A stretch of DNA of 39,738 bases from NCBI GenBank assembly GCA_937936805.1, contig CALDDP010000149.1, forward strand, positions 1-39,738. The letters are read 5' to 3'. Every line of letters starts with the position of its first letter. Position 1 is the first letter of the stretch. The notes beneath the pieces are model-generated. The model saw nothing but the letters and a program-made list of their open reading frames with translations. It was not told the origin of the DNA and ran no database searches. The stretch comes from an uncultured Gammaproteobacteria bacterium. Lineage in GTDB: Bacteria; Pseudomonadota; Gammaproteobacteria; GCA-001735895. The translations under genes were made by a program, and so were the position numbers. Shown one piece after another: positions 11,910-14,818 of this stretch.

Positions 11910-13457
11910 ATGAACAAAAGCAAGTTAATTATTTTTGACACCACTTTGCGCGACGGCGAGCAAAGTCCGGGTGCCTCGATGACACGCGACGAAAAAGTTC
12001 GTATCGCGCGCGCCCTCGAGCTGATGAAAGTCGACATCATCGAAGCCGGTTTTCCGATCGCCAGTGACGGTGATTTCGAATCGGTGAAGGCAGTTGCCAA
12101 AATCATCAAAGACAGTACCGTGTGTGGATTGGCACGTGCCAAACAGGTGGATATCGAACGTGCCGGAGAAGCGATTAAAGCGGCTAATTCGGGGCGCATT
12201 CATACTTTTCTTGCGACTTCGCCGATTCACATGCAACACAAATTGCGCATGCAGCCGGACGAGGTGGTGGAAGCCGCGGTGTCGTCAATACGCATGGCAC
12301 GGCAGTATACCGATGACATCGAGTTTTCACCGGAAGACGCGGGACGCTCTGAACCCGACTTTCTATGTCGAGTAATCGAAGCGGTGATAGATGCGGGGGC
12401 TACCACCATCAATATCCCGGACACGGTCGGTTATAATGTGCCGCACCAGTTCGGTGACCTGATCCGGCACCTGATCGAACGGGTTCCGAATTCGGACAGG
12501 GCTGTCTTTTCCGTACATTGTCACAATGACCTGGGCCTGGCAGTCGGTAACTCATTGTCAGCAGTACTGAACGGGGCACGCCAGGTGGAATGCACGATAA
12601 ATGGACTCGGTGAGCGGGCCGGTAACGCATCGCTGGAAGAGATCGTCATGGCGGTGCGTACCAGGCAGGATATTTTCCCCTGCGATACCGACCTGGACAC
12701 CACGCAAATCATGAATTGCTCGAAGATGGTTTCAGGCATTACCGGATTCAACGTGCAGCCCAACAAGGCGATTGTCGGCGCCAATGCGTTCGCACATGAA
12801 TCCGGCATTCACCAGGATGGAATCTTGAAGTCGCGCGAGACTTACGAAATCATGCGTGCCCAGGATGTTGGCTGGACCACTAACAAGCTGGTGCTGGGCA
12901 AACACTCCGGCCGAAATGCCTTCAAGACCCGTATGGCGGAACTGAATATCGAGTTCCCTTCCGAGGAAGATCTGAACGAGGTATTTGCACGCTTCAAGGA
13001 ACTGGCAGACAAGAAACACGATATTTTCGATGAAGATTTGCTCGCACTGGTGAATGAAGCCACTTTCGAAACCGAAAATGAAAACATTAAACTGGTCAGC
13101 CTCAGGGTTTGCTGCGAAACCGGCGAAACACCATCTGCCACCATGACTCTCAATATCAATGGTAAGGAACAGCAGGCCGTGGCCAGTGGGGACGGCCCGG
13201 TTGACGCATGTTTCAAGGCAATTGAAAAGCTGACCGAGACCGGGGTCAAGCTCCAGCTCTACTCGGTAAACGCGATAACCACCGGAACTGATTCGCAGGG
13301 TGAAGTCACCGTCAGAGTTGAAAAAGACGGGCAGGTTATTAACGGACAAGGTGCGGATACGGATATCGTCATCGCTTCGGCCAAGTCCTACATCAATGCG
13401 TTGAACAAGGTTGTCAACCGCACGGGTCGAACCCATCCCCAGCTGGGAGATGTGTAA
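11910..13457 (+). CDS. leuA: 2-isopropylmalate synthase
   Basis: [18 protein letters not shown], NTIxD-type and [14 protein letters not shown] motifs, [14 protein letters not shown]-terminal regulatory domain. Confidence 0.98.
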
Positions 13458-13463
13458 CCGTCG

Positions 13464-14345
13464 ATGTTGACTACCCGGCAACAACACTGCCTCAGGGGAA
13501 TCGGTATCGACCTGTGGACCGAACGCGAGGTAAACAGCGGCAGCGAGCCTGCTGCGAAGCCTGTTACCGATATCCTCAGCGTTACGGACCTGGAAGATAT
13601 CCGCCGTTTCCAAAACGGGGACAGACCACGTTTATCCGGGCAGATCGAAGCGCCGACTAATCAGCCGCAAAACGGCGAATCAGATCTGGAAAAGCGTGAT
13701 CTGTCCCCTGTTTCGCCGCCTGAGGACCAGCCGAATACCGATGCCCTGCCCCCCAGCCCTGCGCCTGAGGTTGACGCCCCGGCCCCGGCAAAGCTGGATT
13801 CATGGGATGCGATCATCGAATCGATTCATCGATGCACTGCCTGTGAGCTGGCGCAAAACTGCACCCGCAAAGTACCGGGGGTTGGCAACCGCGAGGCCGA
13901 TTTGTTAATTGTCGGCGAAGGTCCCGGGCATGATGAAGATATCCGTGGTGAACCGTTCGTCGGACGTTCGGGCCAGTTACTCGATCGCATGCTGGCTGCA
14001 ATTGGCATTACCCGCGAGCAGGTCTACATTACCAATATTGTGAAATGCCGACCTCCTGACAACCGCGATCCGAAGCAACAGGAAGCGCAGCAATGTCGCT
14101 CCTTCCTCGAAGCACAGATAGAACAGCTTGCGCCAAAAGTGATTCTATCGGTTGGCCGCGTTTCGGCGCACAACCTGTTAGCCAGCAACCTGCCTGTCGG
14201 CAAGCTCATTCAGCAGGTGCACAGATTGCCGGGAACTGAAATTCCGCTCAAGGTTACCTACCATCCCGCCTATTTACTGCGTAATCCGTCTGCCAAGGCG
14301 ATCGCATGGCAGGACTTGAAACTGCTCCGCCAGATGCTGCAATGA
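13464..14345 (+). CDS. Family 4 (type) uracil-DNA glycosylase with long low-complexity N-terminal linker
   Basis: CTACELAQNCTRKVPGVGNREADLLIVGEGPGHDEDIRGEPFVGRSGQLLDRML, 4 Cys Fe-S arrangement, VTYHPAYLLRNP. Confidence 0.93.
   Translation: MLTTRQQHCLRGIGIDLWTEREVNSGSEPAAKPVTDILSVTDLEDIRRFQNGDRPRLSGQIEAPTNQPQNGESDLEKRDLSPVSPPEDQPNTDALPPSPAPEVDAPAPAKLDSWDAIIESIHRCTACELAQNCTRKVPGVGNREADLLIVGEGPGHDEDIRGEPFVGRSGQLLDRMLAAIGITREQVYITNIVKCRPPDNRDPKQQEAQQCRSFLEAQIEQLAPKVILSVGRVSAHNLLASNLPVGKLIQQVHRLPGTEIPLKVTYHPAYLLRNPSAKAIAWQDLKLLRQMLQ
13613..13714. repeat. Nested inverted repeat (REP/RAYT-type element-like) within the udg linker
   Basis: Outer arms GGGGACAGACCACG (13617-13630) and CGTGATCTGTCCCC (13695-13708), 13/14 complementary; inner arms CAGATC (13641-13646)/GATCTG (13683-13688) and CGCCG (13651-13655)/CGGCG (13673-13677). 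Confidence 0.75.
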
Positions 14346-14818
14346 GCAATCTCGACTTGTGGTTTCGGCGCATGACGCTTGGCGACGTCGAGCGGGTCAT
14401 GAAAGTCGAGCAGGAGGTTTACGAGTTTCCGTGGACCGAGAGGATTTTCAGCGACTGTATTCGAGTCGGTTATTACTGCTGGCTGGCACTGCAACAGCAA
14501 AACATCGTTGGTCATGCGGTAATCAGTGTTACCGCCGGTGAAAGCCACATGCTCAACCTGTCGATTGCCAGTAAGTACCAGGGTAAAGGCTTTGGCAGGC
14601 AGTTCATCGAGTTTCTGCTCAGCGAGGCGCAGGCGAAACAGGCGCGAACCATGTTACTGGAAGTTCGCCCCAGTAATACCGCGGCGATTAATTGCTATAA
14701 TGCGGCAGGATTTAACGAAATCGGATCCCGTAAAGATTATTACCCCGCCCGGGAAGGCCGGGAAGATGCATTACTTTTCGCAAGACAGATAGTTGCGACT
14801 GACGATGCCCTCAACTAG
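14342..14818 (+). CDS. rimI: Ribosomal protein S18-alanine N-acetyltransferase (RimI-like GNAT)
   Basis: MTLGDVERVMKVEQEVYEFPWTERIF, LNLSIASKYQGKGFGRQF, LEVRPSNTAAINCYNAAGFNEIGSRKDYYPA; ATGA overlap with udg. Confidence 0.92.
   Translation: MSNLDLWFRRMTLGDVERVMKVEQEVYEFPWTERIFSDCIRVGYYCWLALQQQNIVGHAVISVTAGESHMLNLSIASKYQGKGFGRQFIEFLLSEAQAKQARTMLLEVRPSNTAAINCYNAAGFNEIGSRKDYYPAREGREDALLFARQIVATDDALN

Follow-up and report, generated by a model that had tools for sequence, protein, structure and literature searches.

A putative TIRYT-type TIR dimer read in frame within a uracil-DNA glycosylase (family 4) linker

How a palindrome came to be read as protein within a DNA-repair gene, and whether the enzyme benefits from it, are the questions raised by the udg gene of the window, by which we mean the whole analysed stretch of 39,738 nucleotides from an uncultured gammaproteobacterium (contig CALDDP010000149.1). 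The initial annotation, made from the sequence alone, had proposed that a REP/RAYT-type palindromic element was exapted as an in-frame linker. The features relevant to this proposal are as follows (G000 denotes the genome of the window).

13464-14345, + strand: udg, family-4 uracil-DNA glycosylase, 293 aa (TIGR00758, PF03167, AlphaFold2)
13536-13571, + strand: eroded remnant of a second linker palindrome, 8/14 Watson-Crick pairs in G000
13613-13616, + strand: AAAC located 5' of the arm, with weak complementarity to GTTT at 13710-13713
13617-13708, + strand: 92-bp palindrome, putatively a TIR dimer, in frame and encoding udg residues 52-82, GDRPRLSGQIEAPTNQPQNGESDLEKRDLSP
13617-13637, + strand: 5' TIR arm GGGGACAGACCACGTTTATCC (genus consensus GGGGACAGACCACGTTTTTC)
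13688-13708, - strand: 3' TIR arm, inverted, reading GGAAAAGCGTGATCTGTCCCC on the + strand

The udg product scored 209.9 bits against TIGR00758 (UDG_fam4; cut-off 125.3) and also matched PF03167, while the four cysteines of the iron-sulphur site (C124, C127, C195 and C211) are invariant; on these sequence grounds the protein is assigned as a family-4 uracil-DNA glycosylase and is predicted to bind an iron-sulphur cluster. The gene is located in the order ilvB-ilvH-ilvC-pssA-leuA-udg-rimI-prfC (neighbouring genes being named by reading their translations), and its product consists of a conserved N-terminal motif (MLTxRQQ..GIGI..W), a disordered linker and a catalytic domain starting at approximately residue 111, with the motif and the domain on either side of the linker being conserved and in one frame. 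Across the genus the linker is hypervariable, differs widely in length and is rich in proline and alanine codons. AlphaFold2 modelling returned block means of 86-98 for the UDG domain and pLDDT values below 50 at residues 52-81, coinciding with the palindrome-encoded residues 52-82, which are predicted to be disordered. In one congener (G020; L069 / L174) the C-terminus of udg with the conserved HPAYLLR motif is absent and the frame continues into rimI, reflecting either a real deletion (and possibly a pseudogene) or an assembly error.

The palindrome at 13617-13708 is real. Its outer arms, GGGGACAGACCACG (13617-13630) and CGTGATCTGTCCCC (13695-13708), match as inverted repeats at 13 of 14 positions, as had been described, and ungapped extension produces 26-nt arms (13612-13637 and 13688-13713) that are 81% complementary. 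Both ends carry GGGGACAG, and the AAAC at 13613-13616 may be part of the element or of its flank. The predicted RNA fold is one long stem that incorporates the outer stem and the two nested inverted repeats noted previously (CAGATC/GATCTG and CGCCG/CGGCG), with an MFE of -46.9 kcal/mol; compared with dinucleotide-shuffled sequences, z is -4.79. The stem is paired at 17 of 20 positions, compared to a mean of 11.2 following synonymous recoding, and only 3 of 5000 recodings scored as high. The location in the UDG linker, the frame and the translation are also as annotated: the udg frame reads GDRPRLSGQ...EKRDLSP through the palindrome, with peptides GDRPGFSGEDLPR and GLSPVSAVSEVDQ spanning the encoded segment. 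An Rfam search of 13000-14400 returned no relevant match.

A genomic search for further copies, as had been suggested, was clearly positive. The exact arm (Y form) is present in eight copies in the whole genome of the window (87% complete; reversed control, 0) and in 115 copies over 31 congeneric genomes (reversed control, 1), these being mostly metagenome assemblies of varying completeness. The copies reside mostly in intergenic palindromes of 38-106 bp, and approximately 50 paired elements in the genus have the arm consensus GGGGACAGACCACGTTTTTC in common, with differing cores and with lengths clustering at 56, 62 and 73-76 bp. G000 itself carries ten arm pairs including the udg copy, two of which represent the variant GGGGTCAGACCACG; this sister TIR family (GGGGTCAGACCACG / GGGGTCAGAGCACG) forms 73-bp palindromes (L053 2697-2769, C43; L054 814-886, C267). 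Additionally, the 5' flanks of the approximately 50 elements are A-rich, with AAATA preferred directly before GGGG; this sequence may belong to the TIR or reflect a preferred target. A single genome, G005 (L179-L201), holds 61 exact arms, many of them clustered on contig C131, an apparently recent amplification.

The paired elements are nearly all intergenic. Among some 55 pairs examined, one-mismatch loci included, udg was the only recognizable gene to contain one, although a crude ORF call assigns approximately 92% of the sampled DNA to coding sequence. The one-mismatch loci added no further pair in a recognizable gene. Three loci considered as other in-frame copies were rejected: L048 lies 5' of the likely gene start, L143 is situated in an integrase-like transposase fragment and L184 is not in a recognizable gene. 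A search for the source of the udg copy through a core in common with intergenic copies gave no convincing match (best z of 4.1 among many comparisons). Since each of the 50 paired copies can be read without a stop in one frame or more, and the GDRPR...LSP frame is open in 20 of them with a length of 2 mod 3, the family is suited by its sequence to read-through.

Y1_Tnp genes are present in 27 of the 31 congeners. On contig C131 of G005, the genome with the most arm copies, the gene for a 229-aa Y1 protein with an HUH motif (TNHVH) and tyrosine (CYRYIELNP) is located between inverted arms, GGGGACAGGCCACGATTA / GGGGACAGACCACGATTA (12830-12843, +, and 13608-13621, -), the distance being 87 bp on the upstream side of the gene and 18 bp on the downstream side. 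Further Y1 genes of this genus have GGGGTCAGATCACA, GGGGACAGTTTACC or GGGGTCAGGTCTTTG repeats at their flanks. The only Y1 gene assembled in G000, whose product is 44% identical to the 229-aa protein, has no such TIR beside it, and no TIR-flanked transposase is assembled in that genome; the anticipated link to a RAYT/Y1 gene was thus observed in a congener and not in the genome of the window itself. TIRs with the consensus GGGGWSAS have been described as inverted repeats that flank Y1/HUH transposase genes and also occur as dispersed dimers or clusters (Di Nocera et al. 2013, PMC3733652). The GGGGWSAS motif, the inverted flanks of a Y1/HUH gene (in G005) and dimers dispersed in the genome were all observed here, and by sequence comparison the udg palindrome is classed as a TIRYT-type TIR dimer (TIRtron family). 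Identity with GTAG REPs or REPINs, which are palindromes of 20-40 nt ending on one side in a GTAG tetranucleotide, was rejected, as the arms start with GGGGACAG and GTAG is absent from their consensus. The transposases scored 74.4 and 72.0 bits on NF047646 (REP_Tyr_transpos), just under its cut-off of 80 and thus short of a RAYT assignment, and exceeded the cut-off of PF01797. The REP/RAYT designation of the initial annotation therefore holds as regards dispersal and linkage to Y1 genes in the genus, but is replaced by the TIRYT class.

In-frame copies with a strong stem were identified in the udg linkers of four species, namely G000 (92 bp), G039 (recorded as the Gamma 3 endosymbiont of Olavius algarvensis; 74 bp), G006 (74 bp) and G020 (92 bp, its 20-bp stem being perfect). 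A further four species have eroded copies, measuring exactly 74 bp in G016, G018 and G044 and 92 bp in G013, with ends chosen by us from the alignable arms. All copies are at codon phase 0 (74 bp, n=5; 92 bp, n=3), and stems are paired at 17-20 of 20 positions in the four species with strong stems and at 8-14 of 20 in the four with eroded copies. Because these eroded copies are orthologous and lie in related species, the insertion is not recent. Many congeners have a udg without the palindrome, including G021, a close sister of G020. As in coding palindromes of the Rickettsia palindromic element (RPE) kind, the element is in frame in a conserved gene, some orthologues of which lack it. The suggested check for a clean insertion did not reveal one: the G020 copy replaces approximately 60 nt relative to G021, and the orthologues included no pair that shows the site before and after insertion across a clean junction.

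A tree built on catalytic-domain DNA did not reject a single clade for the seven main species (p-AU 0.084), while a clade including G020 was rejected (p-AU 1.7e-7), and the G020 copy was probably inserted separately. The gene tree requires three changes for the seven species, so that more gains or losses are possible; we conclude that there were at least two gains of the palindrome, or one gain with several losses. The arms of G000 and G039 are near the mobile consensus despite near saturation at 4-fold sites (44% identical), a state poorly explained if a single old insertion had drifted in a purely neutral way. The udg of G014 (L066 1047-1800) contains a tandem array with a 201-bp period and arms GGGGACAGAGCGCG / CGCGGTCTGTCCCC, giving a UDG of approximately 397 aa; this arm variant is essentially confined to the array, which is apparently independent.

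Upstream in the linker lies the second palindrome, of 36 nt with a 14-bp stem, which aligns without gaps in nine species. In seven relatives (G002, G009, G045, G007, G021, G016 and G018) it is in frame and retains 12-14 of 14 pairs, with compensatory changes and pairing far above that of synonymous recoding. Both sides have changed in 8 of 14 pairs, and covariation is 0.446 as opposed to 0.26 (shuffled) and at most 0.25 (slid). This may reflect selection on the structure, hairpin-templated mutation by which both arms are rewritten, or the replacement of one palindrome by a different one. Of 26 udg linkers, 8 contain a perfect inverted repeat of 11 bp or more, whereas coding DNA has 4.3 such repeats in every 100 kb, making them approximately 35 times commoner in the linkers than in coding sequence at large. 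G008 and G017 (L070, L073), which belong to a separate branch of the genus, have a short linker hairpin of another kind, TCCTCTGCTCC/GGAGCAGAGGA, whose loop is 4 nt long.

The explanation we prefer, and hold to be probable, is that 13617-13708 is a non-autonomous Y1/HUH TIR dimer which inserted in the ancestral udg linker and is now translated and drifting. It starts from membership of the sequence family, the association of TIR and transposase within the genus, the in-frame coding context and the eroded orthologous copies. The dimer would be built from the TIR that belongs to a family of Y1/HUH transposases (the TIRYTs, which are related to RAYTs) and would be mobilised in trans by such a transposase; entry into the linker would have occurred in the ancestor of part of the genus, presumably with a single origin in the main group, followed by nearly neutral drift. 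Survival in udg may be explained by arms that are stop-free in all frames, a length that keeps the frame and a disordered linker of variable length. An inverted repeat arising by chance or composition in a low-complexity linker, without any tie to mobile DNA, might be suggested by the hypervariable, proline and alanine codon-rich nature of the region, but is extremely improbable given eight exact arms against none in the reversed control, an arm consensus common to udg and intergenic copies and the linkage of the repeat to a Y1 transposase in G005. That palindromes entered the linker several times independently at a favoured target, in place of one old insertion, is possible though on balance unlikely: the perfect stem of G020 next to a sister without a copy, the different array with GGGGACAGAGCGCG arms in G014 and the near-consensus arms of G000 and G039 agree with such a history, but the phase, 74-bp length and similar 3' flank common to G039, G016, G018, G044 and G006, eroded copies included, and the unrejected clade of seven species argue against it.

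True exaptation, whereby an mRNA or ssDNA hairpin or the encoded peptide benefits udg and selection keeps the arms, appears improbable. Stems in G000, G006, G039 and G020 that are equalled in at most 3 of 5000 synonymous recodings, the compensatory changes of the upstream palindrome and the excess of perfect inverted repeats in udg linkers are consistent with it, yet stem pairing has been degraded in G013, G016, G018 and G044, many congeners lack the palindrome, and the linker is widely variable in length and predicted to be disordered. A further reading, likewise improbable, is that the linker repeatedly receives TIR dimers whose hairpin arms are then rewritten together, either because the hairpin templates its own correction or because its structure is selected; palindrome dynamics would then generate new protein linker sequence in a DNA-repair gene. 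Returning to the inserted and drifting TIR dimer, a tolerated passenger that supplies linker sequence is favoured over a benefit to the enzyme, because pairing is lost in four species, many species lack the element and the region is disordered. The exaptation originally proposed is thus retained insofar as the palindrome is read as linker protein, and not as regards a useful function.

Literature searches for the arm sequence, and for REP, intragenic and uracil-DNA glycosylase in combination, yielded no relevant paper. REPINs and RAYTs similarly combine a short repeat, paired in inverted orientation, with a relative of Y1; here, however, the GTAG tag is missing, single arms are not palindromes and the transposases fall just under the REP_Tyr_transpos cut-off. 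RPEs, of approximately 100-150 bp, are likewise mobile palindromes translated in frame in conserved genes (Ogata et al. 2000, reviewed in PMC2229807 and PMC10969869), but they occupy many genes and the accounts of them in these reviews, as far as they bear on this comparison, note no linked transposase, whereas the present Y1-linked family occupies essentially one gene. The TIRYT TIR repeats and TIRtrons (PMC3733652) are also GGGGWSAS repeats in inverted orientation around Y1/HUH genes and in dimers, although the intragenic elements listed in that study are GTAG and CGTC REPs, in contrast to a TIR dimer that lies in a gene and is orthologous in several species. Those REPs are in frame in uvrA, recB, dnaE2 and ligase genes, often as dimers encoding 20-30 aa; flexible linkers were suggested by the authors, who speculated in 2013 that in-frame palindromes alter repair (PMC3733652). 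The udg element resembles them as an in-frame palindrome in a repair gene, but belongs to a different repeat family, in a gene that the main text of that study does not mention, and with its erosion documented across species. In-frame palindromes in repair genes are therefore a known but rare phenomenon of which udg is a well-documented new case, the novelty residing in the TIR class, the gene and the erosion series between species. One gene in one genus provides a graded series, from absent through intact and eroded to tandem array, making the fate of an insertion (passenger, function or decay) directly testable, and adds TIRYT repeats, a class that has been less studied, to the palindromes known within genes.
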